DNA of 56,847 nucleotides from Serratia sp. H1w (lineage in GTDB: Bacteria; Pseudomonadota; Gammaproteobacteria; Enterobacterales; Enterobacteriaceae): contig NZ_AYMQ01000048.1 in NCBI RefSeq assembly GCF_000633355.1, positions 1-56,847 on the forward strand, read 5' to 3'. Of the stretch, positions 33,732 through 48,579 are shown in pieces. A program made the translations under genes and the position numbers. A model generated the notes under the pieces. It worked only from the letters and a program-made list of their open reading frames with translations. It was not told the DNA's origin and searched no databases. Each line of letters starts with the position of its first letter. Position 1 is the first letter of the stretch.

Positions 33732-35513
33732 TCAATGAGAAGACAACTCATACTTCTTTATCTTGCGATACAGCGTCGCGATACCTATCCCCAGCTTCTC
33801 CGCTACCACCTTCTTGTTGGCGTGTTGACTCAGCGCTTCTTCAATCATCAACTTCTCCATACTTTCCAAACCCGCCATATCATGACTTTCACAGTTTTCC
33901 GTTACTCGCTGTATTGCAGCGGGTGTGCGTACCTCCAGCGGTTGCCCACGGGTCAGATTGGGCGGCAGCAAATAGGTATCGATAATCTCGCCGCTTGGCA
34001 CCACGTTAACCAGGTATTCCATCAAGTTACTCAGTTCGCGTACGTTACCGGGCCAGCGGTGCCGCCGTAACAGTTCAAGCACCTCTGCCGAGATACCGGG
34101 ATAGATAATGCCGATCCTCTTGGTGTGCAAACTGAGGAAGTAGTGCACCAGCAGTTCGATATCGCCTTCGCGCTCGCGCAGCGGTGGCAGGGTGATAGGG
34201 ATAACATTCAGGCGATAATAGAGATCTTCACGGAACTTGCCTTCGGCGATGTATTGTTCCAGGTTCTGATTGGTGGCGGAGATGATGCGGATATCGACCG
34301 GGATCGGCTTGCTGGAGCCGATCGGCAATACCTCACGGGACTCCACCGTGCGCAGCAGTTTGGCCTGCAACATTAACGGCATATCGCCGATCTCATCCAG
34401 GAATAGCGTCCCCTGATTGGCGGCCTGGATGAGCCCCACCTTGCCATTGGCCGAAGCGCCGGTAAATGCGCCTTTCAAGTAGCCAAACAGTTCACTTTCC
34501 AACAGTTGATCGGGAATGGCGGCACAGTTAATAGCGATAAAGGGTTTATCGCTGCGATTGCTTAGCCGGTGGATAGCCCGTGCCACCACTTCTTTGCCGG
34601 TGCCGCTTTCGCCCACCACCAATACGCTGGAGGGGCTGGGGGCAATACGGGTAATCAGGCTCTTCAGCAGGCGCATCGGTTTGCTTTCCCCTGCCAGATG
34701 TTCAATACGTGGGTCTTGCTGGATCAGCGTATCGTTAAATGACGAATGTGACTGATGGAAAGCCATCAGGAACAATTGGTGATCCTGGATCTGGTGCAAC
34801 TGGCCAATCATAATCTCCTGATTATCGTCAAAGGAGAGAATATGTTGCAGATGCCCGCTGGTATAATTTTGCCGGAAGGTGAGGGCGCGGATAGTAAAGG
34901 TTTTACCGATGATATTTTCCTGCGGCAGATTAAGCTGTTTTAAGGCCATCATATTGGCAAACTTGACCTGGCTCTTTTCATTGAGGATTAATACCCCCTG
35001 ATCCATATTTTCAATCAGGCTGAACAGCACTTTATTTAAGCCACTGCTGCCACCTTGCGTCTCCAATAAGTTGGAAACAAAGACGTTGGAGATATTACGC
35101 ACGTAATCCGAGAACTCATGCAGGTTATCCCGTAACCTTTGCTGTTGTTCCAGGGTGAAGGCCACCAGGCTGATCACGCCGATGCAGGCGTCCTGGAACA
35201 GGATCGGGATGCCGAGGAAGGCCTTCTCCTGGCACTCATCTTTGCTGGTGCACCCTTCGCACACCGGATCGAAACGCGAGTGGGTGACTATTTTTTCATT
35301 TTTAGTATCAAGTACATATTTCAATAGCCAGGAGTTACTACCGAGCTTGACCCCAAAGTGTTTACCATAGGGGCCAGTGCCTGCCACGCGCACCAGGTTG
35401 GCATCGACAATCTCCACCTCCAGCAGCAGCACGCTGGAGAGCATTTTGGTAAAGCGCAAAATGGTGGGTTGTATCTGCATAAGAGCCGACTGGGCAGTGG
35501 CCGATGCTATCAT
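33732..35513 (-). CDS. ygeV: sigma-54-dependent activator YgeV
   Basis: A 593-residue enhancer-binding protein, as long as E. coli YgeV. The N-terminal sensory part (~1-180) holds a Cys cluster at 85, 88 and 94 ([10 protein letters not shown]), followed by a PAS-like domain (~160-265). The AAA+ domain has Walker A at 301-308 (GESGTGKE), the sigma-54 contact loop GAFTGA at 348-353, and Walker B LFLDEIGD. The C-terminal Fis-type HTH is [21 protein letters not shown] place the start at the ATG at 35513 after GGGGGA rather than the longer frame to 35642. It is divergent from ygeW and very likely activates the sigma-54 promoters upstream of ygeW and ygfK. Confidence 0.9.
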
Positions 35514-35636: not shown

Positions 35637-35649
35637 TATCAAAATGATA
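35637..35649. promoter_or_regulatory. candidate YgeV enhancer site (TATCAAAATGATA)
   Basis: TATCA-AAA-TGATA is a palindrome found again, as TATCA-AAG-TGATA, at 45210-45222 upstream of ygfK. A partial copy (TATCATTTTGGGT) follows at 35665-35677. It lies about 196 bp before the -24 element, a normal enhancer distance. Binding by YgeV is inferred. Confidence 0.55.
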
Positions 35650-35779
35650 CTGCGCGCTAATTGCTATCATTTTGGGTTGAGATAATGGCTGATAATTATA
35701 AACGTTGCCTTAACGCCTACGGCCATTATCGTTAATCAGCAATATATTTAGCATAAACCGCACTGAAAACGCTAAATTA

Positions 35780-35795
35780 TGTGATCATCATCATA
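35780..35795. promoter_or_regulatory. imperfect CRP-like site
   Basis: TGTGA-TCATCA-TCATA differs from TGTGA-N6-TCACA in one position of the second half. It lies between the enhancer candidates and the sigma-54 element of ygeW. Confidence 0.4.
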
Positions 35796-35838
35796 TTGTT
35801 TCGCTGTTTTATGTTGCGCCGCTTAACTTTCCTGTTGT

Positions 35839-35854
35839 TGGCACGCTTATTGAT
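35839..35854 (+). promoter_or_regulatory. sigma-54 promoter of ygeW
   Basis: TGGCACG-CTTA-TTGAT matches TGGCACG-N4-TTGCW except for A in place of the -12 C. It lies about 97 bases before the ygeW ATG and reads toward the ygeW-yqeA genes. Confidence 0.65.
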
Positions 35855-35950
35855 TGTCCTGTGGTCAGGCGCTGAAAAGCGTATTTGTCATGCTGAGGTC
35901 AGCTACCTGTTTTATCGGGTCACCACCACACTCTCTATTTAGGGGCAAAG

Positions 35951-37138
35951 ATGAGAACAGTTAACCAGTTAATTAAGGAAATAAGCGCGTTAAAGTCCAA
36001 TTTACATCAAAAGGACTTTTTACTGACGTGGGAACAGAGCCGTGACGAGCTGGAACTGGTGCTCAAGCTGGCGGAATCGCTGAAAACCATGCGCTCAGAA
36101 AATATTGCCACCAAGATTTTCAACAGTGGCCTAGGCATCTCCATCTTCCGCGACAACTCCACACGCACCCGCTTTTCTTATGCCTCGGCGCTCAACCTAC
36201 TGGGCTTGGCGCAGCAAGATCTGGATGAAGGCAAATCGCAGATTGCCCACGGGGAAACGGTGCGTGAAACGGCCAATATGATCTCCTTCTGCGCGGATGC
36301 CATCGGTATCCGTGACGACATGTATCTGGGAGCGGGCAACGCCTATATGCGCGAGGTAGGTGCCGCGCTGGATGAAGGGTTCGAGAAGGGCGTATTGCCA
36401 CAGCGCCCGGCCTTGGTCAACTTGCAATGCGATATCGATCACCCAACGCAGGCCATGGCGGATCTGGCCTGGTTACAGGAGCACTTTGGCAGCCTGGAAA
36501 ACCTGAAAGGCAAGAAGATCGCAATGACCTGGGCCTATTCACCCAGCTATGGCAAACCGCTGTCGGTGCCGCAGGGCATCATTGGCCTGATGACCCGCTT
36601 TGGCATGAAAGTGACGCTGGCCCACCCGGAAGGTTACGACCTTATCCCAGATGTGATCGAAGTGGCGAAAAACAACGCCGCCGCTTCCGGTGGCAGCTTT
36701 CAGCAGGTGACCTCGATGGCAGAGGCCTTCCAGGGCGCGGACATTGTCTATCCGAAATCCTGGGCGCCGTACAAGGTGATGGAACAGCGTACCGACCTGC
36801 TGCGCGCCGACGATCACGCGGGCCTCAAGGCGCTGGAGCAACAGTGCCTGGCGCAAAACGCCTATTACAAAAACTGGCACTGCACCGAAGAGATGATGAA
36901 GCTGACCAAAGGCGGCGAGGCGCTGTATATGCACTGCCTGCCAGCGGATATCACCGACGTCTCGTGCAGCGAAGGGGAGGTCTGCGCCAGCGTGTTCGAA
37001 AAATACCGCATCGCCACCTATAAGGAAGCCAGTTGGAAGCCTTACATCATCGCGGCAATGATCATGGCACGCAAATTCTCCAACCCGGGTCTGGTGTTGG
37101 ATCAATTACTGAAAGAAGCAGAAAAACGCATTAAATAA
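35951..37138 (+). CDS. ygeW: carbamoyltransferase YgeW
   Basis: A 395-residue member of the aspartate/ornithine carbamoyltransferase superfamily. Carbamoyl-phosphate motifs are present: STRTR at 70-74, HPTQ at 164-167 and HCLP at 328-331. The natural substrate of YgeW is not firmly established; with carbamate kinase (yqeA) in the same unit it would act in the catabolic direction, yielding carbamoyl phosphate and then ATP. GGGGC precedes the ATG. It is the first gene of the ygeW-ygeX-ygeY-hyuA-yqeA run and follows the sigma-54 promoter. Confidence 0.96.
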   Translation: MRTVNQLIKEISALKSNLHQKDFLLTWEQSRDELELVLKLAESLKTMRSENIATKIFNSGLGISIFRDNSTRTRFSYASALNLLGLAQQDLDEGKSQIAHGETVRETANMISFCADAIGIRDDMYLGAGNAYMREVGAALDEGFEKGVLPQRPALVNLQCDIDHPTQAMADLAWLQEHFGSLENLKGKKIAMTWAYSPSYGKPLSVPQGIIGLMTRFGMKVTLAHPEGYDLIPDVIEVAKNNAAASGGSFQQVTSMAEAFQGADIVYPKSWAPYKVMEQRTDLLRADDHAGLKALEQQCLAQNAYYKNWHCTEEMMKLTKGGEALYMHCLPADITDVSCSEGEVCASVFEKYRIATYKEASWKPYIIAAMIMARKFSNPGLVLDQLLKEAEKRIK

Positions 37139-37212
37139 ATTTACCTGGTCAGGGATACCGGGCGGTGTCCCTGCAAGGTGAACGGTTAATGCGACCAGAA
37201 GAGGTAGCGGTT

Positions 37213-38406
37213 ATGTCGGTTTTTTCATTGAAAGTGGCGATTGAGGATAACCGTTATTTTAACGGCGAAACCTCCCCTCTGTTCTCCAAGGCGCAAGCGC
37301 AGCAAGCGCGCGAGTTTCATAAAAAGATCGCGGGTTATCAGCCAACGCCGTTATGCGCGTTGGACGATCTCGCTCAGCTGTTTGGCGTGCGCAAAATCCT
37401 GGTAAAGGACGAGTCCCAACGCTTTGGCTTGAACGCCTTCAAAATGCTCGGCGGCGCTTACGCTATTGCCCAGTTGCTGTGTGAAAAGTATCAGATTGAT
37501 ATTAATGCGTTTACCTTCGAAAAATTCAAAGCCGCGGCGACCGAAAAAATGACCTTCGCCACCACCACCGACGGCAACCATGGCCGGGGTGTCGCCTGGG
37601 CGGCACAACAGCTGGGGCAGCATGCCGTGGTGTACATGCCCAAAGGTTCGGCGCAGGAGCGGGTGGATCACATTCTCAACCTCGGTGCCGAGTGCATCGT
37701 TACCGACATGAACTACGACGATACCGTACGCCTGACCATGAGAACGGCCCAGGAGCGTGGCTGGCAAGTGGTGCAGGACACCGCCTGGGAAGGTTATACC
37801 AAGATCCCGACCTGGATCATGCAGGGCTACGCCACGCTGGCAGACGAAGCGGCCGAACAGATGCGGCAGATGCATATCGAGCGGCCAACTCACGTGCTGT
37901 TGCAAGCCGGCGTCGGGGCAATGGCGGCAGGTGTGCTGGGCTATCTGGTGGACGTGTTTGGCGCAGACAAGCTGCATTCGGTGATTGTTGAACCCGAGCT
38001 GGCCGACTGCGTTTATCGCTCAGGGGTAAAAGGGGAAATCGTCAACGTGGGCGGCGATATGGCCACCATCATGGCCGGTCTGGCCTGTGGTGAGCCTAAC
38101 CCCTTGGGCTGGCCGTTGTTACGTAACTGTGCCAGCCAATTTATTTCCTGCCAGGACAGCGTGGCGGCGTTAGGGATGCGTGTGCTGGGCAATCCGCTGG
38201 GCAACGATCCGCGCATTATCTCAGGCGAGTCCGGTGCGGTTGGGTTGGGCGTACTGGCTGCGGTACATCACAGCCCGCAACGTGCGCAGCTGATGCAGAA
38301 ACTTGGTCTGGATAGTCAGTCGGTGGTGTTGTTGATCAGCTCCGAAGGGGACACCGACGTCAAACATTATCGCGAAGTGGTATGGGAAGGGAAACATCCC
38401 ATCTGA
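37213..38406 (+). CDS. ygeX: 2,3-diaminopropionate ammonia-lyase YgeX
   Basis: A 397-residue PLP enzyme that splits 2,3-diaminopropionate to pyruvate and ammonia. The PLP lysine is K77 in [12 protein letters not shown]. The glycine-rich phosphate loop ([15 protein letters not shown]) and [15 protein letters not shown] are typical of fold type II lyases. It reads almost residue for residue like E. coli YgeX. The start is the ATG at 37213 (MSVFSLK), as in E. coli; upstream in-frame starts add no family sequence. 74 bases separate it from ygeW. Confidence 0.96.
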
Positions 38407-38441
38407 AGATACCCGTCGTTAAAAATTGGAGAAAAAACAGA

Positions 38442-39659
38442 ATGGCAAAGCAAATTCCTTTTGAGTTGGTGTTAGAGAAAGCCTACCAATACAAAGATGA
38501 GATGACGCGCTTCCTACGGGACATGATCGCCATCCCGAGCGAAAGCTGTGATGAAAAACTGGTGGTGCTGTGTATCAAGCAAGAGATGGAGAAGGTGGGG
38601 TTCGACAAGGTTGAGATTGACCCGATGGGCAACATCCTGGGCTATATCGGCCATGGCCCACACCTGATCGCGATGGATGCGCATATCGATACCGTCGGCA
38701 TTGGCAACATCAAGAACTGGACCTTCGACCCTTATCAGGGCATGGAAAACGACGAAATTATCGGTGGCCGCGGCGCGTCCGATCAGGAAGGCGGCATGGC
38801 TTCCATGGTTTACGCGGGTAAAATCATCAAGGATCTGGGGCTGGAAGATCAGTATACGCTGCTGGTGACCGGCACCGTGCAGGAAGAAGACTGCGACGGC
38901 CTTTGCTGGCAGTACATCATCGAGCAGTCCAACATTCGCCCAGAATTTGTCATCAGCACCGAACCGACCGACTGCCAGATCTACCGTGGTCAGCGTGGCC
39001 GTATGGAAATCCGCATCGATGTGCAAGGCATCAGTTGCCACGGGTCTGCGCCGGAGCGCGGTGATAACGCCATTTTCAAAATGGGGCCGATCCTCAACGA
39101 ACTGCAAGAACTGTCCGGCAAGCTTGGTCACGATGACTTCCTGGGCAAAGGTACGCTCACCGTTTCAGAGATTTTCTTCACCTCACCCAGCCGTTGCGCG
39201 GTAGCAGACAGCTGCGCGGTGTCGATCGACCGCCGCCTGACCTGGGGCGAAACCTGGGAAGGGGCGTTGGACGAGATCCGTGCGTTGCCAGCGGTGCAGG
39301 CAGCCAAAGCGGTCGTATCAATGTATGACTATGATCGTCCGTCCTACACCGGCCTGGTATACCCGACCGAATGCTACTTCCCAACCTGGAAAGTCGAAGA
39401 AGATCACATCACGGTGAAAACCGTGAGCAAGGCCTATCAAGGGTTGTTCAAGAAGCAACCGGTGGTGGACAAGTGGACTTTCTCAACCAACGGGGTCTCC
39501 ATCATGGGGCGTCACGGTATACCGGTGATCGGTTTTGGTCCGGGCAAAGAGCCTGAAGCTCACGCGCCGAACGAGAAGACCTGGAAAGATCATCTGGTGA
39601 CCTGTGCGGCGATGTATGCCGCCGTGCCTTTGGCCTATCTGGACGAGTTGGCGCAATAA
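38442..39659 (+). CDS. ygeY: M20-family metallohydrolase YgeY
   Basis: A 405-residue M20/ArgE-type zinc hydrolase. Metal ligands are visible: His81 and Asp83 in MDAHIDTVG, the bridging Asp in GASDQEGG, and the general-base Glu pair in [11 protein letters not shown]. The dimerisation lid lies in the middle. Such enzymes remove acyl or carbamoyl groups from amino acids. The substrate of YgeY is not settled; its place between a diaminopropionate lyase and a hydantoinase suggests an N-acyl or N-carbamoyl ureide intermediate. GGAG lies before the ATG at 38442. Confidence 0.93.
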
Positions 39660-39672
39660 GTTTTGGTTGCCC

Positions 39673-39713
39673 CTCACCCCACCCCTCTCCCACAGGGAGA
39701 GGGGTGGGGTGAG
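39673..39713. repeat. long perfect palindromic repeat after ygeY
   Basis: A 19-bp arm (39673-39691) and its exact complement (39695-39713) flank a loop ACA, 13 bases after the ygeY stop. It belongs to the CCCTCTCCC-ACA-GGGAGAGGG family that recurs around yqeA, yqeB and yqeC. It could end or stabilise the ygeWXY transcript. Confidence 0.85.
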
Positions 39714-39755
39714 TAGATTGTTCGTTCGCAAGATTTGATGTGTGGCACGTTCGGT

Positions 39756-39790
39756 CCCCTCTCCCTGTGGGAGAGGGTTAGGGTGAGGGG
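39756..39790. repeat. palindromic repeat providing the hyuA ribosome site
   Basis: The same family in the opposite orientation: CCCTCTCCC-TGT-GGGAGAGGG followed by the tail TTAGGGTGAGGGG. The tail ends 4 bases before the hyuA ATG, so its GAGGGG is the only ribosome site available to hyuA. Confidence 0.8.
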
Positions 39791-39794
39791 AACA

Positions 39795-41195
39795 ATGAAG
39801 CAGCTGATTAAGAACGGCATTCTGGTTGATAGCGAGGGGCAGTATTCTCAGGACTTGCTGATTGAGAATGGGGTGATCTGCCAGCGCGACACGGTGCTCG
39901 AGGCCGATAGTCACTGTGAGGTTATCGATGCGTCCGGCTGTTATGTCATGCCCGGTGGCATCGATGTTCATACCCATTTCAACATTGATGTCGGCATCGC
40001 CCGCAGTTGCGATGATTTTTTCACGGGTACCCGTGCGGCGGCCTGCGGTGGCACTACCACTATTATCGATCATATGGGATTTGGCCCGGCGGGTTGCAAT
40101 CTCCATCACCAGCTAAACGTCTATCACCAGTATGCGGCCGGCAATGCGGTTATCGACTACGGCTTTCACGGCGTGATCCAGCATATTGACGACGGTATTC
40201 TTGAAGAGATGGCCAGCATGGTGCATGACGAAGGGATCAGCAGTTTCAAGCTGTATCTGACCTATCTCTACAAGATCAATGATAGCGACGTGCTGCGCGC
40301 CTTGGGGCAGTTGCGGCAGGTTGGGGCACTGACCACCGTCCACCCGGAAAACGATGCGGCGATCGCCTTGCGCCGCACAGCGCTGGTGGCGGCCGGTAAA
40401 ACGGCACCGATCCATCATGCGTTAAGCCGTCCGCTGGAGTGTGAGGCGGAGGCGATTGGCCGGATGATCAATCTGGCCCAGTTGGCAGACAACGCCCCGT
40501 TGTACATCGTCCATTTGTCCAATGGGCTGGGGCTGGACTATTTGCGTCTGGCACGTCAACGGCGCCAACCGGTGTGGGTGGAGACCTGCCCGCAGTATCT
40601 GCTGCTGAACGAACAATGTTATCTGCGCGAAGATGGGGCGAAATACATCCTCAGCCCACCGCTGCGCGAGCAGCGGGAATTGGATCGGCTGTGGGTAGGC
40701 ATTGCAGAGGGTTCGATCGATACCGTCGCTACCGATCACTGCACTTTTCCGTATCACCAGCGGCAAGCGATGGCGGCAGGGGACTTTACCCGCTGCCCGA
40801 ACGGCCTGCCTGGGGTCGAGAATCGCATGATGCTGCTGTTCTCCCATGGGGTGATGAGTGGGCGGATTTCCCCTTCACGCTTTGTGGCGCTCACCAGCAG
40901 CAACCCGGCTCGGCTGTTTGGCCTGTGGCCGCGCAAGGGCAATCTAAGCCCCGGTGCGTACGCTGACGTGGTGATTTTTGATCCGCGCCAATCCTCGGTT
41001 ATCCGCCACGCCGGGCTGCATGACAATGCGGACTATTCCCCTTATGAAGGATTTCATTGCCAAGGGATGCCGGTATTGACGATGTGCCGGGGCGAAATCG
41101 TTGCCCGCCAGGGTGAGTTCACCGGGCGCCAGGGATACGGGCAGTTCTTACGCCGTCGGCCTTTTAATGCCCAGATTGCGGCAAAAATGGGGTAA
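39795..41195 (+). CDS. hyuA: hydantoinase/dihydropyrimidinase-like HyuA
   Basis: A 466-residue cyclic amidohydrolase of the D-hydantoinase family, which opens hydantoin-like rings to N-carbamoyl amino acids. The binuclear metal site is complete: His59 and His61 (DVHTHF), a probable carbamylated Lys152 in SSFKLYLTY, and Asp314 in ATDHCTF. In E. coli, HyuA acts on D-phenylhydantoin in vitro and its natural substrate is unknown; here a purine-derived ureide is likely. I use the ATG at 39795. The longer frame from 39735 only translates the repeat. Confidence 0.93.
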   Translation: MKQLIKNGILVDSEGQYSQDLLIENGVICQRDTVLEADSHCEVIDASGCYVMPGGIDVHTHFNIDVGIARSCDDFFTGTRAAACGGTTTIIDHMGFGPAGCNLHHQLNVYHQYAAGNAVIDYGFHGVIQHIDDGILEEMASMVHDEGISSFKLYLTYLYKINDSDVLRALGQLRQVGALTTVHPENDAAIALRRTALVAAGKTAPIHHALSRPLECEAEAIGRMINLAQLADNAPLYIVHLSNGLGLDYLRLARQRRQPVWVETCPQYLLLNEQCYLREDGAKYILSPPLREQRELDRLWVGIAEGSIDTVATDHCTFPYHQRQAMAAGDFTRCPNGLPGVENRMMLLFSHGVMSGRISPSRFVALTSSNPARLFGLWPRKGNLSPGAYADVVIFDPRQSSVIRHAGLHDNADYSPYEGFHCQGMPVLTMCRGEIVARQGEFTGRQGYGQFLRRRPFNAQIAAKMG

Positions 41196-41252
41196 CAGAG
41201 TGCCCCTCACACAGCGAGAGGGAGCAAGTTCGGTGTCATGGGTAGGTATTGC

Positions 41253-41278
41253 GTAGGGGCGCCGCATGCTGCGCCCGT
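41253..41278. repeat. GGGCGC..GCGCCC short palindromic repeat, copy 2
   Basis: This copy (GTAGGGGCGC, CGCATG, CTGCGCCCGT) lies between hyuA and yqeA, 25 bases before the yqeA ATG. A fragment of the other repeat family (CCCCTCACACAGCGAGAGGG) lies just upstream at 41203-41222. Confidence 0.7.
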
Positions 41279-41303
41279 GAGTGGCTAATCAATAAGGATC
41301 AGC

Positions 41304-42236
41304 ATGAACAAGAAAATAGTTCTGGCATTGGGTGGTAACGCTTTAGGTGAGGGGCTGGCGGAACAGATGCAGGCAGTGAAAACCACCGCGCGGGCGATTG
41401 TCGATTTAATCGAGCATGGTCACCAGGTGGTGGTCACTCATGGCAATGGCCCACAGGTTGGCATGATCAACCTGGCATTTGAGGCTGCGGCGAAAAGTGA
41501 AGCCCATACCCCGATGCTGCCGATGTCGGTGTGTGTCGCGTTGAGCCAGGGGTACATAGGTTACGATCTGCAAAACGCCCTGCGCGAAGAGCTGCTAGAT
41601 CGTCAGATCGACAAACCGGTCGCTACGCTGATCACCCAGGTGATCGTCAACGGCAGCGATCCGGCTTTCCTCAATCCCACCAAGCCGATTGGTTCGTTCT
41701 TCACCAAGGCCGAAGCCAGCCAACTAACCAAGAATGGCTACAACATGGTAGAGGATGCGGGCCGTGGCTATCGCCGGGTGGTGGCCTCACCCAAGCCGAT
41801 AGATATTGTGGAGAAAGAAACGGTACGCGCCATGATGGAGGCCGGACAGGTGGTGATCACCGTTGGCGGTGGCGGTATTCCGGTGATCCGTGAAGGTAAC
41901 CATCTGCGCGGGGCCAGCGCGGTGATCGACAAAGACTGGGCCAGCGCCAAACTGGCGGAGATGATCGATGCCGATATGCTGATCATCCTCACCGCGGTGG
42001 AAAAAGTGGCGATCAACTTTGGCAAACCGAATCAACAATGGCTGGAGCAACTGAGCATTGCCGATGCCCAGCGCTTTATCGAAGAGGGACATTTTGCCAA
42101 AGGCTCCATGCTGCCGAAGGTCGAGGCGGCGGTAGCGTTTGCCGAATCCAAGCCGGGGCGTCAGGCGTTGATCACGGTGTTAAGCAAAGCCCAGCAAGGT
42201 ATTGAAGGCAAGACCGGCACGGTCATTAGCCATTAA
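41304..42236 (+). CDS. yqeA: carbamate kinase YqeA
   Basis: A 310-residue carbamate kinase that turns carbamoyl phosphate plus ADP into ATP and carbamate. Family motifs: LALGGNALGEG at the start, THGNGPQVGM, TVGGGGIPVI, and DKDWASAKLAEMIDADMLIILTAVE for nucleotide binding. It completes the energy-yielding end of the pathway begun by YgeW. GGATC lies before the ATG. It is the last gene of the plus-strand run and converges on yqeB. Confidence 0.96.
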   Translation: MNKKIVLALGGNALGEGLAEQMQAVKTTARAIVDLIEHGHQVVVTHGNGPQVGMINLAFEAAAKSEAHTPMLPMSVCVALSQGYIGYDLQNALREELLDRQIDKPVATLITQVIVNGSDPAFLNPTKPIGSFFTKAEASQLTKNGYNMVEDAGRGYRRVVASPKPIDIVEKETVRAMMEAGQVVITVGGGGIPVIREGNHLRGASAVIDKDWASAKLAEMIDADMLIILTAVEKVAINFGKPNQQWLEQLSIADAQRFIEEGHFAKGSMLPKVEAAVAFAESKPGRQALITVLSKAQQGIEGKTGTVISH

Positions 42237-42251
42237 CCAACGTCGACATTC

Positions 42252-42288
42252 CCCCCTCACCCTAACCCTCTCCCACAGGGAGAGGGAA
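42252..42288. repeat. palindromic repeat after yqeA
   Basis: CCCTCTCCC (42266-42274), loop ACA, then GGGAGAGGG (42278-42286), with the outer CCCCTCACCCTAA tail. It lies 16 bases past the yqeA stop in a convergent gap, where it may stop transcripts. Confidence 0.8.
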
Positions 42289-42493
42289 CCGAATGTGCCA
42301 CGTTTGACCCCTGTATTTGATGGCTGCTCTGGATTAACCCCCTCTCCCTAAATCCATGTTCATGGGACCTTTGACAGTGCTTGGGAGAAGGGACCGAATG
42401 TGCCACGTTTGACCCCTGTATCTGATGGCTGCTCTGGACTAGCTCCCTCTCCCCAAATCCATGTTCATGGGATCCTCTGACTGTGTTTGGGAG
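42284..42493. repeat. two 105-bp tandem repeats
   Basis: The unit starting GGGA(A)CCGAATGTGCCACG recurs with a period of 105 bases (42288 and 42393). Each unit carries CTGATGGCTGCTCTGGA-like sequence, a CCCTCTCCC arm, a CCATG-TT-CATGG mini-palindrome and a GGGAGA arm. The copies are about nine-tenths alike. A part of the unit also occurs reversed upstream of hyuA (39742-39760). Confidence 0.8.
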
Positions 42494-42515
42494 AGGGCTG
42501 GGGTAAGGGGATATC

Positions 42516-44105
42516 TTATCTGCGCCCTAACTTCATGATGGCCTCTAGCACCGCTCCGCCGATGGCCCGCGCCTTATCAGACACCGTGGTGTAGTCTGCC
42601 AACGTACCACGCGGATCGATATCGCCGATTTTGCTGCCGGTTTTAACCTCCAGCCCATCATGCAATAAACCACGCACCATGCCGGAGAGCGGAGCAATCA
42701 CCGGCACTTCACCGCAGTGCGCCACCACATCGCCTTCCTGTACCAAATCCCCCAAAGCTACGCGACATTGCATCACGCCATCCGCTGGCGCACGGATCAC
42801 CCGGCGCGTGGTATGGCCCGCGATATTGCCGGGAATACCGGTATTGGGATGGGTATAGCCTTGATAAATCACCCGGCCTAACGCGTGGCCGCGATTGGTT
42901 TCAATCACCGCATCGCAATCAAGACCAGCGTTGAAGCCAGGGCCGAGGGCCACGGTGATCGGGGCCATATTGCGGTGGGTCCCCAGATTTTGCTTGGCCA
43001 GAATGGCATCCACCAGAAAACGCGGTTTCAGCTGCTCCAGGCTGCGGGTGTCCTCATCGACCAACAGCGGGATCTCACCGCGGTTGATGATGTCGAAGGC
43101 TTCATTGACGTCGTTTGCCAGGCAGGCGGTGACACCCTCGACGCAGGTCTTACCGTCAAACATGGCCTGAGCAAATGCCACCGTCCGGCGGATGGCGGTC
43201 GGCTGGGCAATATCCAGCATGATGACCTGAAAACCGGCATGATGCAGCCGCAGGGCCACGCCGGTGGCGATATCGCCTGCGCCACGGATCACCACCAGCT
43301 TGTCGCGCGTTAGCCGGATATCATTTTTCATCAGCCCGCCAGCGGATTGGTTGCGCACCTGCAACAGTTCTGCCAGTACGCTAATAGCGATTTCTTCTGG
43401 GGTCTCTGCCCCGATGTTATAGCCGACCGGAGCATGCAGCCTGGCGAGCTTCTCATCATTCACGCCGCGCTGGCGGAGCTGTTGGGTAAAGGTCTGCACC
43501 TTGCGGCGGCTGGCCAGCAACCCCAGATAGCGCAGCGGCTGCTCGATCAGCACGTTTAAGGCTTCGCAGTCCTGATTGTTGGTGGCGATGATCACAAAGT
43601 TGGCCGGGTCAATATTCATCTTGTCGATAGCCGCCGGGAAGGTTTCGCCATGAACCAGGGTGGTACCCGCTGGAAATAGCGCCGGGTCAAGGCTGGCCGG
43701 GTAGATATCGGCAACGTGAATATCGAAACCCAGCGGTTTGGCGGCGCTGGCGATGGCGCGGTTAACGTGCCCGGCCCCAATCAAGATCAGCCGTGGGCGC
43801 AGGCCATGCACGTCGATATACACCGACATCGCACCGCCGCAGTCCGAACCTACGGCATCCTGCCCGGTACGCGCCATGCGGCCATGAAACACCCTGGCTT
43901 TGCGCTCCGTGATGGCGGCAATGGCCTGTTCAATCACCAGGCGCTCGATCATGCCGCCACCGATGGTGCCAATACAGCCACCGTCAGCCATCACCAGCAT
44001 CTGCCCGGAATGGCGTGGCGTGGAACCCCGGCTTTCGATAATCTGGGCCAGCGCAAAGGGCCGGTTCTCTTCTTCTAGTCGTGCAGCTTCGGCGAAGATA
44101 TTCAT
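42516..44105 (-). CDS. yqeB: XdhC/CoxI-family protein YqeB
   Basis: A 529-residue protein with two parts. Residues ~1-250 are XdhC/CoxI-like (ESRGSTPRHSGQMLVM, GTIGGGMIE, a Rossmann LILIGAGHVNRAIA), a family that inserts or sulfurates the molybdenum cofactor of xanthine dehydrogenases. Residues ~262-529 form the EF2563-type selenium-dependent molybdenum hydroxylase domain (VVIRGAGDIATGVALRLHHAG). It probably matures XdhD. GAGGT lies before the ATG. It is co-directional with yqeC, 28 bases apart, and convergent with yqeA, the same order and orientation as in E. coli. Confidence 0.93.
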   Translation of the reverse strand: MNIFAEAARLEEENRPFALAQIIESRGSTPRHSGQMLVMADGGCIGTIGGGMIERLVIEQAIAAITERKARVFHGRMARTGQDAVGSDCGGAMSVYIDVHGLRPRLILIGAGHVNRAIASAAKPLGFDIHVADIYPASLDPALFPAGTTLVHGETFPAAIDKMNIDPANFVIIATNNQDCEALNVLIEQPLRYLGLLASRRKVQTFTQQLRQRGVNDEKLARLHAPVGYNIGAETPEEIAISVLAELLQVRNQSAGGLMKNDIRLTRDKLVVIRGAGDIATGVALRLHHAGFQVIMLDIAQPTAIRRTVAFAQAMFDGKTCVEGVTACLANDVNEAFDIINRGEIPLLVDEDTRSLEQLKPRFLVDAILAKQNLGTHRNMAPITVALGPGFNAGLDCDAVIETNRGHALGRVIYQGYTHPNTGIPGNIAGHTTRRVIRAPADGVMQCRVALGDLVQEGDVVAHCGEVPVIAPLSGMVRGLLHDGLEVKTGSKIGDIDPRGTLADYTTVSDKARAIGGAVLEAIMKLGRR

Positions 44106-44133
44106 TGTTACCTCGTCAATAACCTCAGAAATA

Positions 44134-44904
44134 TTATCGTGTTAAGCGCCGTATGCAGTGATGAATGGCCGGGGTTTCTTGCACTGCGCCAAACCAGATG
44201 GCGCTAAGCGCCAGTTCTGGCCGCAGCAGGGTATGCCAGTGGGCATTATCACAATGAGAAACCTGATTGATCAGCCAGACCCGCCGTGCCTGAGGTGGCG
44301 TACCTTTAAACATTCCTTCAGGGTGGGCGATGAGGGTATCGAATACCCGCTGATCCAGTATTTCGCCAGCACCGATCCCCGTCAGCGCCGAGAAAATCGC
44401 CCAACGGTGAATTTGCTGTGGGTCTGCGGGACGATCGATCACCCGGCCTCCGGTTAGCGCGATAACACAATCGCTGCTGGAGGGGATGCAAGGTTCATGC
44501 CTTGCCGGGGCTTTCAGCGGTAATCCTCGGGAGCCGTCTGCCTCGACCAGGATCACGTCGAAGGTTGCACGCTGTTTGAGTTCGTCGATTTGCTCGGCAG
44601 GTAACCCGATGACCTTGTTATCCTGCGGCTGATAATGGCTGAAGCAGGCGGTAATGGCCGGGGCGTTGCTGGCGGTGGGCGTTTGGCCGATCAACAGGCG
44701 GTGGTAGTTTGCGGGAGCGGGCAGGTACATCTTGGTGGTGGTGGTGAACAGCACGCGCTTGCCCTGGTGATAAAAGGTCTGTGCCAGCCAGTGCAGGGTG
44801 CTGGTTTTACCTCCGGCCCCAATCAGGGCGATCAGTAGCTGCTGGCCGCTATCGAGGCGGCGATATTCCTCACTGAATAATTCCCTGAAAGTTGGTGTCA
44901 TCAT
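44134..44904 (-). CDS. yqeC: putative molybdenum hydroxylase accessory ATPase YqeC
   Basis: A 256-residue P-loop protein (LIGAGGKTS at 28-35, the Lys at 33), with LVEADGSRGLPLKAP as the second conserved motif. YqeC-family proteins accompany selenium-dependent molybdenum hydroxylases; the precise reaction is unknown. Two adjacent ATGs (44904, 44901) follow GAGGGG from a repeat; the second is better spaced. In E. coli mocA (ygfJ), a molybdenum cofactor cytidylyltransferase, lies next to yqeC; here there is none. Confidence 0.9.
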   Translation of the reverse strand: MMTPTFRELFSEEYRRLDSGQQLLIALIGAGGKTSTLHWLAQTFYHQGKRVLFTTTTKMYLPAPANYHRLLIGQTPTASNAPAITACFSHYQPQDNKVIGLPAEQIDELKQRATFDVILVEADGSRGLPLKAPARHEPCIPSSSDCVIALTGGRVIDRPADPQQIHRWAIFSALTGIGAGEILDQRVFDTLIAHPEGMFKGTPPQARRVWLINQVSHCDNAHWHTLLRPELALSAIWFGAVQETPAIHHCIRRLTR

Positions 44905-44940
44905 CCCCTCATCCTAACCCTCTCCCACAGGGAGAGGGGA
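44905..44940. repeat. palindromic repeat providing the yqeC ribosome site
   Basis: CCCCTCATCCTAA then CCCTCTCCC-ACA-GGGAGAGGG. Read on the minus strand its tail GGATGAGGGG ends directly at the yqeC start, giving the only visible ribosome site for that gene. Confidence 0.8.
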
Positions 44941-45040
44941 CCGTTCGAGTTAGTTTATTGCCCCGAGTAATATCTTGCTTTTGTTGTTCTTACTCCTCGT
45001 TTTCCGGCGTTGTACGGACTAATTACGCACTCTGGACAGT

Positions 45041-45075
45041 TCCCTCTCCCTGTGGAAGAGGGATGGGGTGAGGGG
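45041..45075. repeat. palindromic repeat upstream of ygfK
   Basis: CCCTCTCCC-TGT-GGAAGAGGG with the tail ATGGGGTGAGGGG, in the same orientation as the copy before hyuA. One arm has a mismatch. It faces the yqeC copy in inverted orientation. Confidence 0.8.
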
Positions 45076-45209
45076 CGCAGGTTAATATGGCGGTTTATTG
45101 GAATAGATTGCCGATTTAATAGTAACCCATCTTGATGTAATCGGTATTTAATGAGTGTTCATACTTTATCGATTGCGGTCTCGCTTTTCGCCAAAAGGTC
45201 ATTGACTCG

Positions 45210-45222
45210 TATCAAAGTGATA
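45210..45222. promoter_or_regulatory. candidate YgeV enhancer site (TATCAAAGTGATA)
   Basis: It shares 12 of 13 bases with the palindrome at 35637-35649. It lies about 182 bases before the -24 element of the ygfK promoter, nearly the same spacing as at ygeW. Confidence 0.55.
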
Positions 45223-45312
45223 GTGAACGATGTTTTTTTGATAATCGATTCTATTAGCTTGGTGGTGATAATTAAACGGCTGTTGGCACTGATTTTTATT
45301 CTCACTTGCGAT

Positions 45313-45328
45313 TGTGAGCCTGTTCACA
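45313..45328. promoter_or_regulatory. CRP binding site
   Basis: TGTGA-GCCTGT-TCACA matches both CRP half-sites exactly. It is centred about 84 bases before the -12 element of the ygfK promoter, so cAMP-CRP could modulate the promoter or the divergent yqeC. Confidence 0.7.
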
Positions 45329-45391
45329 AATAAAATTAACAATTAGAACTGCCTCACGAATTTAACCGCTGCCCAACCCGGTTGGGAGATT

Positions 45392-45407
45392 TGGCCTGAT
45401 TGTTGCT
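45392..45407 (+). promoter_or_regulatory. sigma-54 promoter of ygfK
   Basis: TGGCCTG-ATTG-TTGCT keeps the invariant GG and GC with 10 bases between, and differs from TGGCACG-N4-TTGCW at two less critical positions. It ends 65 bases before the ygfK ATG. Confidence 0.75.
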
Positions 45408-45471
45408 GCGTTATGGCATAACCGATGTGGAAACTCATCATTCAGGCATTTCGTCGCAAGGAGATCAAGCT

Positions 45472-48400
45472 ATGGGAGATATAATGCGTCCCGTTCCGTT
45501 CAAGGCGCTGTTAACCCGGATTTTCGATGAATATCAGGCGAGTCGGTCTATTTTTGGTATTCCAGAGCAACAGTTTTATCGCAAACATGACGATCGGCAG
45601 ATTAAGGTCTTCAACGAAAGCTGTGAAACGCCGCTTGGCCCGGCCGCAGGGCCGCATACCCAGTTGGCACAGAATATCATCGTCTCCTGGTTGACCGGTG
45701 GGCGGTTTATCGAATTGAAAACCGTGCAAATCCTCGATCGACTCGAGCTGGAGAAACCCTGTATCGATGCCGAAGACGAATGCTTTAACACCGAATGGTC
45801 GACCGAATTCACGCTGCTCAAAGCCTATGATGAATATTTAAAAGCCTGGTTTGCCTTGCACCTGCTGGAGACGATGTTTGATCCACGGGCGAAGGGGGAA
45901 AGTAAATCCTTCATCTTCAATATGAGCGTGGGCTATAACCTCGACGGAATAAAACAGCCTCCGATGCAGGCCTTTATTCACAATATGATGGACTCGACTC
46001 ACAATCCGAAATATGCCGAGTATCAAGCTATTCTGGATGCATGGGTGCGGGATGAGAGTTTTATTAATCAATTCGCCTTATCTGCTCAGCGTGGGGCATT
46101 GGCTCAGCTATCAGAGCATATTCCAGTACAGTTGGTCAGCGGTATTACCCTTTCAACCATGCACGGTTGCCCGCCAGATGAAATCGAAGCCATCTGCCGT
46201 TATATGCTGGCAGAAAAACGGCTCAATACCTTTGTGAAATTAAACCCGACGCTGCTGGGCTATGCGCGCGTACGTGCCATTCTGGATACCTGCGGTTTCG
46301 ATTATGTGGGGTTGAAAGAAGAGTCTTTCGAACACGATCTGAAACTGGAACAGGCGATCGCCATGTTGCACCGCCTGACCGCCCTGAGCAAACAGCAACA
46401 GTTGGGCTTTGGGGTCAAGCTGACCAACACCTTGGGGACGATCAACCATAAAGGCGCATTGCCGGGCGAAGAGATGTATATGTCCGGGCGCGCGTTGTTC
46501 CCACTGTCGATTAACGTGGCGGCGGTACTTTCCCGTGAGTTCAACGGTGAGTTGCCGATTTCCTATTCCGGCGGGGCGAGCAAGTTTAACGTCCGCGAGA
46601 TTTTTGACACCGGGATCCGGCCAATCACCATGGCTACCGATCTGCTCAAGCCCGGCGGCTATCTACGCCTGACGGAGTGCATGCAGGAGCTGGACGCTTC
46701 CGATAGCTGGCAGATGACGCGCATTGATGTCGATAAGTTACAGGCGCTGGCCGACAAGGCCGTCAGCATGGAGTACACCCAGAAACACTGGAAATCCACC
46801 GATCGCATCGATGCCGGTGGCCCGCTGCCAATGATTGACTGCTACGTGGCACCTTGCGTTACCGCTTGCGCGATTAAACAGGATATCCCGGAATATATTC
46901 GGCTGCTGGGTGAGCAGCGCTACGCAGATGCGCTGGAGCTGATTTATCAGCGTAATGCGCTGCCAGCCATCACCGGCCATATCTGCGATCACCAATGTCA
47001 GTACAACTGCACCCGCCTGGATTACGACAGCGCGCTGAACATCCGCGAACTGAAAAAGGTAGCGCTGGAGAAGGGCTGGGATGAGTATCAGCGCCGTTGG
47101 CATAAACCGGCAGGCTCCGGCAGTAAACGTCCAGTCGCCATTTTGGGGGCTGGCCCGGCAGGCCTGTCCGCAGGGTACTTCCTGGCGCGAGCGGGGTATC
47201 AGGTCACGCTGTTTGAGCGTGAGGCCAATGCGGGCGGGGTGGTGAAAAACATCATTCCACAGTTCCGTATTCCGGCAGAGCTTATTCAGCACGATATCGA
47301 CTTCGTGGCTGCGCATGGCGTGAAGATGGTGTATGGCTGCGATCCCGAGCTGACCGTCGACAAGCTGCAACAGCAAGGCTTCGATTATGTATTTATCGGT
47401 ATCGGCACCGATAAAAACAGCGGCGTGAAGCTGGCGGGCAATAACCGCAACGTGCATAAATCCTTGCCGTTCCTGCGTGATTTCAACCTCGGCAAACCGA
47501 TGAATCTGGGCAAACACGTGGCCGTGGTGGGCGCGGGTAACACGGCAATGGACTGTGCTAGGGCTGCGCTGAAGGTGCCAGGCGTACAGGACGTTACCGT
47601 GCTGTATCGCCGTACGCTCAATGAAATGCCAGCCTACCGCGAAGAGTATCTGGAAGCGGTGGAGGATAACGTGCAGTTTATGTTCCTCACCAACCCGGAA
47701 CACTTTGATGCCAACGGTACCCTGACGGCCAGAGTGATGACGCTGGGAGAACCGGATGAACAGGGCCGCCGCCGCCCGGTTGCCACCGATCAGACCTTGA
47801 CGCTACAGATCGACACCCTGATCACTGCCATTAGCGAACAGGCCGACCAAGAGGTGCTGCATAAGCTGGGCGTGCCGCTGGATGAGGCGGGCTATCCGCA
47901 GGTCAATACCGCCACCGGCGAAACCACCCGGCCAAACGTCTTCCTGATCGGCGACGTACAGCGCGGCCCGTCATCGATTGTTGCCGCCATCGGTAGCGCC
48001 CGCCACGCGGCTGAAACGGTGTTGGCACGGGAAAACGTCAAAACCCATCACGCTGACAAATACTGGTCGAACGTCGATCCGGCGGAAATCTATCGCCGTA
48101 AAGGCAGTATTTCCGTGGCGCTGGTGAATAAAACCGAACGTGAAACCTTCGTGGCTCAAGAGGCTCAACGCTGTCTGGAATGTAACTACGTGTGCAGTAA
48201 ATGCGTCGACGTTTGCCCGAACCGCGCCAACGTGTCGATTGCCATACCGGGCTTCGCGGATCGTTTCCAGACCCTGCATCTGGACGCCTATTGCAACGAA
48301 TGCGGCAACTGCGCCCAGTTCTGTCCGTGGCAGGGCAAGCCTTACCAGGACAAAGTGACGATCTACAGCCTGCCGCAGGATTTTGCCAACAGTACCAATC

Positions 48401-48579
48401 CGGGATTCCTGGTGGACGGTGCACAGGTCAGCGTGCGGCAGGATGGCAAGCTGTATCAATTACGGATCGCCAGCGACGGCCAGTTTGAGCAAGCACCGGC
48501 AGAACTGGAGGAAATGTGCCGCATTATCAGCCATGTGCGCACTCATCATCATTATCTACTTGGTCAGGTGGAGGTGTAA
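45472..48579 (+). CDS. ygfK: Fe-S/flavin oxidoreductase subunit YgfK
   Basis: A 1035-residue YgfK. The N-terminal ~430 residues resemble a dihydroorotate/dihydropyrimidine dehydrogenase barrel. A GltD-like module follows: Cys-rich CYVAPCVTAC (from C457) and CDHQCQYNC, an FAD site GAGPAGL at ~559, and an NAD(P)H site GAGNTAMD. The C-terminus has two ferredoxin-like clusters, CLECNYVCSKCVDVCP (C901 on) and CNECGNCAQFCP (C941 on). It would carry electrons between XdhD/YgfM and a pyridine nucleotide or other carrier. I choose the ATG at 45472 (MGDIMRP, as in E. coli) after AAGGAG. ssnA begins 2 bases after its stop. Confidence 0.95.
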   Translation: MGDIMRPVPFKALLTRIFDEYQASRSIFGIPEQQFYRKHDDRQIKVFNESCETPLGPAAGPHTQLAQNIIVSWLTGGRFIELKTVQILDRLELEKPCIDAEDECFNTEWSTEFTLLKAYDEYLKAWFALHLLETMFDPRAKGESKSFIFNMSVGYNLDGIKQPPMQAFIHNMMDSTHNPKYAEYQAILDAWVRDESFINQFALSAQRGALAQLSEHIPVQLVSGITLSTMHGCPPDEIEAICRYMLAEKRLNTFVKLNPTLLGYARVRAILDTCGFDYVGLKEESFEHDLKLEQAIAMLHRLTALSKQQQLGFGVKLTNTLGTINHKGALPGEEMYMSGRALFPLSINVAAVLSREFNGELPISYSGGASKFNVREIFDTGIRPITMATDLLKPGGYLRLTECMQELDASDSWQMTRIDVDKLQALADKAVSMEYTQKHWKSTDRIDAGGPLPMIDCYVAPCVTACAIKQDIPEYIRLLGEQRYADALELIYQRNALPAITGHICDHQCQYNCTRLDYDSALNIRELKKVALEKGWDEYQRRWHKPAGSGSKRPVAILGAGPAGLSAGYFLARAGYQVTLFEREANAGGVVKNIIPQFRIPAELIQHDIDFVAAHGVKMVYGCDPELTVDKLQQQGFDYVFIGIGTDKNSGVKLAGNNRNVHKSLPFLRDFNLGKPMNLGKHVAVVGAGNTAMDCARAALKVPGVQDVTVLYRRTLNEMPAYREEYLEAVEDNVQFMFLTNPEHFDANGTLTARVMTLGEPDEQGRRRPVATDQTLTLQIDTLITAISEQADQEVLHKLGVPLDEAGYPQVNTATGETTRPNVFLIGDVQRGPSSIVAAIGSARHAAETVLARENVKTHHADKYWSNVDPAEIYRRKGSISVALVNKTERETFVAQEAQRCLECNYVCSKCVDVCPNRANVSIAIPGFADRFQTLHLDAYCNECGNCAQFCPWQGKPYQDKVTIYSLPQDFANSTNPGFLVDGAQVSVRQDGKLYQLRIASDGQFEQAPAELEEMCRIISHVRTHHHYLLGQVEV

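Follow-up and report, generated by a model that had tools for sequence, protein, structure and literature searches.

Which DNA sequence does YgeV recognise? The question is raised by a stretch of 56,847 nucleotides from Serratia sp. H1w (contig NZ_AYMQ01000048.1; hereafter the window, i.e., the whole stretch of DNA that was analysed), which carries genes of the reductive urate pathway together with ygeV, the gene for a sigma-54 activator that earlier work has reportedly linked to urate degradation in Escherichia coli. A 13-bp palindrome, TATCA-N3-TGATA (the box), occurs upstream of two genes of the window, ygeW and ygfK. We propose, as a prediction from sequence comparison, that the box serves as the upstream activating sequence (enhancer) through which YgeV acts, and assign to this a probability of roughly 0.87. 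Searches limited to open-licence papers yielded no binding motif for YgeV. The proposal would provide a predicted site together with a core regulon (ygeW, ygfK, xdhA and ygfT/uacT) for an E. coli regulator otherwise without a DNA target in the literature examined, and the pathway in question is the degradation of urate by gut bacteria.

The box upstream of ygeW, ygfK and xdhA

The two predicted YgeV boxes of the window are TATCAAAATGATA at 35637–35649, upstream of ygeW, and TATCAAAGTGATA at 45210–45222, upstream of ygfK (no strand is assigned to either). As a preliminary description of this DNA had stated, the two differ at a single base, which is the third base of the spacer. If up to two mismatches to TATCAAARTGATA are allowed, the window has six matches versus 1.33 expected, a number that none of 100 shuffled sequences reached, and the only exact ones are the boxes of ygeW and ygfK. 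The perfect pattern, TATCANNNTGATA (TATCA-N3-TGATA), has ten copies in the 6.13-Mb genome, and the same pattern read backwards has none. Two of the ten fall within the upstream regions of ygeW and ygfK (1008 bp), for which the expected number is 0.0016 (P about 1.4e-6). Another contig carries a third, upstream of xdhA (G000:C116:68783), and 23 bp further on is a partner of 9/10 arm bases; the other seven are away from these promoters.

Conservation was assessed in the upstream DNA of ygeW and ygfK, taken from 80 named loci around ygeY. Together with the window, this gave 79 sequences for ygeW (78/80 loci; L026 and L080 lack either the upstream DNA or ygeW itself) and 61 for ygfK (60/80 loci; in the others, no ygfK was found in the stretch). 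A box was counted where at least nine of the ten arm bases of TATCA-N3-TGATA matched. Such a box was present before ygeW in 76/79 sequences (48 perfect) and before ygfK in 60/61 (52 perfect); dinucleotide shuffles gave means of 2.9 and 1.85, respectively. The three sequences without it at ygeW were L048 and L072, which have no YgeV orthologue, and L059, which has a site of 8/10. In control windows from the same loci (440 bp before ygeX, ygeY, hyuA and yqeA), the box was found in 2/312. Among all five-base palindromic dyads, counted without bias, TATCA-N3 was the commonest (100/140 sequences), and the runner-up, in 32, overlaps it. When the sites were aligned, 8/10 arm positions at ygeW and 9/10 at ygfK had a weighted identity of 97–100%, the weakest positions having 74% and 83%, respectively, all of these values owing something to the choice of the best match; the central triplet takes 15 forms at ygeW and 14 at ygfK. 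Enterobacterales and Aeromonas carry the box before both ygeW and ygfK, and the box before ygeW extends to Photobacterium, Shewanella and Rhodocyclaceae. The preliminary description had staked its proposal on conservation in relatives, and the motif is indeed conserved at ygeW, ygfK, xdhA and four promoter regions of E. coli K-12.

Each of the two boxes lies upstream of what is, to judge by its sequence, a genuine −24/−12 promoter. The ygeW promoter, TGGCACGCTTATTGAT (35839–35854, plus strand), scores 17.0 bits in a sigma-54 matrix built from 13 K-12 sites (those of ygeW, ygfK and xdhA included), and matches the K-12 site CTGGCACACTTATTGTT (PMC4591121). The ygfK promoter, TGGCCTGATTGTTGCT (GG-N10-GC; 45392–45407, plus strand), scores 14.8 bits and matches the K-12 site GTGGTGCGATTGTTGCT of the same paper. 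An earlier candidate for the −24 element of ygfK, TGGCACTGATTTTTAT (at 45284; 10.4 bits), was dropped in favour of the element at 45392, which has the higher score and a counterpart found by chromatin immunoprecipitation (ChIP) in K-12. The sigma-54 ChIP sites of PMC4591121 include xdhA, ygeW, ygfK and ygfT, and the first three correspond to the promoters used here.

The −24 elements begin with GG at 35840–35841 (ygeW) and at 45393–45394 (ygfK). From the box centre to the first G there are 197 bp (ygeW) and 177 bp (ygfK); from the box end, 191 bp and 171 bp, respectively. A spacing of 190 ± 10 bp, previously given for both promoters, does not hold for the pair, and the two spacings are unequal. 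Among the relatives, the distances at ygfK cluster with a period of about 10.3 bp (period 10–11; ten distinct values, P 0.0014 versus a uniform draw) and those at ygeW cluster weakly (P 0.022 for 27 values; a period of 12 bp fits equally well), both P values being optimistic as the species are related. The ygeW site of L034, for which the script had picked a different 9/10 site, was set by hand for this comparison and for the alignment.

A weaker second copy had also been described at 35665–35677, 28 bp downstream of the ygeW box. This sequence, TATCATTTTGGGT (no strand assigned), matches 7/10 arm bases (counted by eye) and is a degenerate second box; what stands is its TATCA half-site, which is kept near there in relatives. 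Over 76 ygeW sequences, +29 is the best secondary offset, and the half-site at that offset has a weighted identity of 77–83% per base. At ygfK, no clear second box was found. At xdhA, pairing is the rule: in 16/19 loci there are paired boxes 19–23 bp apart, the exceptions being three Morganella, and Serratia oryzae has two perfect boxes 20 bp apart. The xdhA box matches at least 9/10 arm bases in 13/19 loci and 8/10 in the remaining six (L056 was left out of this set on account of a spurious long stretch). Thus, the putative upstream activating sequence is a palindrome that is paired at xdhA and accompanied by a half-site at ygeW.

In E. coli K-12, boxes are found at xdhA (TATCACATTGATT, 9/10), at ygeW (TATCAATATGAGA, 9/10), at ygfK (TATCATAATGATA, 10/10) and between ygfT and uacT (TATCAATATGAGA again, 9/10). 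These box-bearing genes belong to the YgeV iModulon as listed in PMC12132413, which includes xdhABC, ygeWXY, hyuA, ygfK, ssnA, ygfM, xdhD, ygfT and uacT, and also ybiY and rcsB, the last two being left out of our comparison. In a metagenome-assembled genome (MAG) of Rhodocyclaceae, there are only six perfect sites in 5.2 Mb, and three of these are before ygeV, ygfK and ygeW. A fourth perfect site in that region (L136:9365) lies between converging genes, where two open frames meet end to end, and is left out of the promoter sites.

YgeV and its co-occurrence with the box

The gene ygeV occupies 33732–35513 on the minus strand (Pfam PF00158 and PF02954; the start codon was placed by reading the sequence). 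Its product has an N-terminal sensor, a PAS-like region (matching solved structures weakly, with a best E of 7.7e-06), an AAA+ domain (residues 274–440) and a Fis-type helix-turn-helix (HTH; residues 549–588). The recognition helix of the latter, GIG[IV]AT[LI]YRK, is nearly invariant, as would be expected if the HTH reads a constant site. In the sensor, C85, C88, C94 and C110 are invariant in 73/73 near-full sequences; these four cysteines (encoded within 34689–35513) suggest a metal or iron–sulphur centre.

The box is present where YgeV is present and absent where YgeV is absent, the set of negatives being small. In a draw of genomes from the taxonomic order, ygeW was found in 15/394, and all 13 usable ones have a box of at least 9/10 together with a YgeV homologue of 45–69% identity. 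The window's own genome and L160 (truncated, no upstream DNA) are not among these 13, and the draw overlaps the named loci, some of its genomes apparently being those of named Aeromonas loci (e.g., G569 is apparently the same as the L010 genome). In four loci where ygeV lies away from ygeW (L010, L013, L015 and L066), the box is still at ygeW. Conversely, the three genomes that have ygeW and no YgeV orthologue (L048, L072 and G040) do not have the box either. Two of them, L048 and L072, are MAGs with a best site of 6/10 before ygeW, and their nearest relatives of YgeV are, in one, a full-length protein of 36% identity and, in the other, an AAA+ domain only. The third is a gamma-proteobacterium (100% complete) whose ygeW has 61% identity and which gave no match to YgeV at all; its best site, of 8/10, falls within the upstream open frame. 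The control by YgeV of both halves of the island, as first put forward in the preliminary description, thus draws support from conservation, from the boxes at xdhA and in K-12, and from co-occurrence, and appears probable.

How might such a system work? Dimers of YgeV would bind TATCA-N3-TGATA via the Fis-type HTH, usually together with a second, weaker site at a distance of about 20 bp at xdhA or 29 bp at ygeW. Once the N-terminal sensor is triggered (by urate or another purine, at a guess), YgeV would assemble into its ATPase ring, which would loop over about 105–240 bp to reach sigma-54 polymerase at ygeW, ygfK and xdhA, thereby opening the promoters of the genes for reductive urate degradation.

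The box next to ygeV could also serve the control of ygeV itself, and this we consider possible, at somewhat less than even odds. In the Rhodocyclaceae MAG, where ygeW is elsewhere, a perfect box lies 45 bp before ygeV (L135:5077), and L105 also has a box 45 bp before ygeV. Against self-control, three Aeromonas loci (L107–L109) in which ygeV and ygeW are apart have no 9/10 site near ygeV; in the window, 124 bp separate the box from the ygeV start downstream of it, and a simple promoter scan gave no minus-strand promoter over the box. In Edwardsiella, a perfect box, TATCAAAATGATA, was seen about 2.3 kb past the end of ygeV (L006:2877–2889).

CRP-like sites between box and promoter

Between box and promoter, there is a further element: a candidate site for CRP, with the dyad TGTGA-N6-TCACA, which was found in the window and in relatives. 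In the window, the CRP-like sites are TGTGATCATCATCATA at 35780–35795 (9/10 dyad bases; centred 52.5 bp before the first G of the −24 element of ygeW) and TGTGAGCCTGTTCACA at 45313–45328 (10/10; centred 72.5 bp before that of ygfK), again without assigned strand. The best dyad was scored in 76 ygeW and 60 ygfK intervals between box and promoter (L048, L072, L059 and L034 being left out at ygeW, L058 and L069 at ygfK, and K-12 being added). Dyads of at least 9/10 were found in 34/76 ygeW and 33/60 ygfK intervals (shuffles 0.35 and 0.2), and dyads of at least 8/10 in 65 and 47, respectively (shuffles 3.9 and 4.05).

The positions of these dyads (at least 8/10) are nearly constant: at ygeW, 58/65 are centred 50.5–54.5 bp before the −24 GG, and at ygfK, 35/47 are at 72.5–73.5 bp and ten at 42.5–43.5 bp. 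In the closest Serratia, the dyad at 42.5 has 8/10; in most Aeromonas, that of ygfK has 7/10 at the same position. At xdhA, a TCACA half is present at the 42.5 position in all 18 loci whose promoter could be read (in L045 and L137, the script gave no sigma-54 match). The positions at ygeW, ygfK and xdhA differ by about whole helical turns. The window also has a TCACG element at 45354–45358 (plus strand), 39 bp before the −24 GG of ygfK, noted from the sequence and its relatives; TCACA or TCACG at this distance is moderately conserved at ygfK and constant at xdhA, and may, at these promoters (L091, L090 and others), be half of a CRP site or something else.

The predicted CRP site at a fixed position between box and promoter is new here, and its fixed position suggests that CRP shapes the loop. 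IHF as the bender of the loop is not favoured, though conceivable at ygeW: matches of at least 12/13 were found in 43/76 ygeW intervals versus 27.1 shuffled, an excess, but in 20/60 ygfK intervals versus 22.4, no excess, and the positions appear scattered by eye. CRP–cyclic AMP, bound at a constant helical phase between enhancer and promoter, would most likely bend the DNA for the loop and so make the pathway subject to glucose repression. We tentatively suggest, with slightly less assurance than for self-control, that CRP stands in for IHF at the uricolytic sigma-54 promoters, lying on one face of the helix, bending the DNA, and gating the enhancer loop positively by carbon status, with a sign opposite to that reported for other E. 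coli sigma-54 promoters. If a phase-locked CRP site does aid the loop, CRP could no longer be seen simply as an inhibitor of sigma-54 transcription.

Several reports bear on this. The CRP targets from genomic SELEX (systematic evolution of ligands by exponential enrichment) in K-12 include ygfK, ygeV<>ygeW and ygfT<>ygfU (PMC3105977). In wild-type E. coli, glucose represses the degradation of urate, and a strain whose CRP site was replaced by a promoter cassette escapes this repression (PMC12507026). Two points count against the proposal, the first of them against its being general. Shewanella, Photobacterium and Rhodocyclaceae have the box and no CRP dyad of at least 8/10 at the fixed position (two Photobacterium have one at 137.5 instead), and the cases of CRP acting at other sigma-54 promoters, namely glnAp2, dctA and Pu, are reported as inhibitory (PMC3900584). 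CRP could likewise be negative here, holding sigma-54 polymerase poised, with glucose repression caused otherwise. This we regard as rather unlikely: glucose repression of urate use and the escape of the strain with the replaced CRP site speak against it, but that strain gained strong promoters too, which leaves the sign unsettled, and conserved CRP sites at constant phase are compatible with either sign. At Pu, moreover, CRP is reported to act without a recognisable site (PMC3900584); unlike these three promoters, those studied here have CRP-like sites conserved at a fixed phase, in a pathway repressed by glucose (PMC12507026).

Alternatives and related systems

Could the box belong to another DNA-binding protein, such as a global or purine regulator that co-controls these operons, with YgeV binding elsewhere? 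CRP is an example of a second regulator that probably shares these promoters. However, in three operons the distance between the box and the sigma-54 promoter is that of an enhancer, the box is kept where ygeV lies away from ygeW, and it is missing in the three genomes with ygeW and without YgeV. Another owner of the box is thus improbable.

Several observations count against YgeV as the reader of the box. The box alone is not specific, because seven of the ten perfect genomic sites are away from the three promoters. One of these seven is inside the ygeX coding sequence (37489; present in K-12 too); it was rejected as a target, as it encodes YQID and is perfect in only 6/75 loci. The other six (L084–L089) are near genes for an FKBP isomerase, a major facilitator superfamily (MFS) transporter, a DEAD helicase, a TonB plug protein/glutathione peroxidase and a P-type ATPase, with one inside an unassigned frame; the best sigma-54 match at these six has 10.1 bits, versus 17.0 for ygeW and 14.8 for ygfK, and they were not taken as targets. 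By the same matrix, however, the xdhA promoter of this genome (a GG-N10-GC element, TGGCCTGCAAGTTGCT) has only 7.5 bits, and is indistinct from these six non-target sites. Two YgfT/AegA homologues in the same genome have no box, so that extension of the regulon to them failed. Two loci that encode YgeV have sites of only 8/10, L059 at ygeW and L058 at ygfK. Finally, two of the three genomes without YgeV are MAGs, which may be incomplete, one of them being that with the 36% full-length relative. As a separate observation, YgeV of L059 and L058 is divergent (53% identity), and their boxes are weakened.

Chance or common ancestry of intergenic DNA is, in our reading, already refuted as the source of the shared palindrome and has a negligible probability: the closest relatives do share much intergenic sequence, and arm conservation arises partly by construction when the box is picked as the best match, but the shuffles, the neighbouring-gene windows and the unbiased dyad count all speak against it, and blastn of both regions gave no match in 5,426 E. 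coli genomes, yet K-12 has the box at both promoters.

The urate genes of the window correspond to the reductive pathway described for E. coli (PMC12507026). After ygeV (minus strand) come ygeW, ygeX, ygeY, hyuA (dihydropyrimidinase type) and the carbamate kinase gene; these are followed by yqeB and yqeC (minus strand), and then by ygfK, ssnA and the genes for a FAD-binding subunit, an XdhD-type molybdenum hydroxylase, a purine permease and an amidohydrolase. The first gene of the run ygeW-ygeX-ygeY-hyuA-yqeA encodes a knotted carbamoyltransferase (35951–37138, plus strand; NCBIfam PRK07200/TIGR03316), and ygfK (45474–48579, plus strand; NCBIfam TIGR03315, the start ATG chosen by reading the sequence) is the first of the run that continues with ssnA. 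K-12 has mocA between yqeC and ygfK, and the window (44904–45474) has none there; an inverted repeat of the CCCTCTCCC type lies between these two genes at about 44915–45080. Ahead of the urate genes, at about 7174–31996, are type VI secretion genes (TssF, TssH, TssM, VgrG and an Rhs protein).

The arrangement is like that of enhancers of the NtrC/NifA/FhlA type: palindromes, often paired, at enhancer distance before a −24/−12 promoter and beside the gene for an AAA+ activator with a Fis-type HTH. The sequence is different: the box is TATCA-N3-TGATA, unlike the sites of FhlA, of NifA, and of fifteen clostridial groups with TGT-N10-12-ACA (PMC6615313). The last-mentioned paper also describes DioR of Clostridiales, which, like YgeV, is a sigma-54 activator predicted to control related enzymes, with a predicted regulon of ygeW-ygfK-ssnA-ygeY, yqeB, dpaL and pbuX; its motif is described there as distinct. 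Within E. coli, YgeV has been renamed IsrR, from an indole/virulence phenotype (PMC9426417). The regulator behind the YgeV iModulon and IsrR is thus the same protein as that considered here, and what is added to it is the predicted box and the arrangement of CRP-like sites between the box and its promoters.

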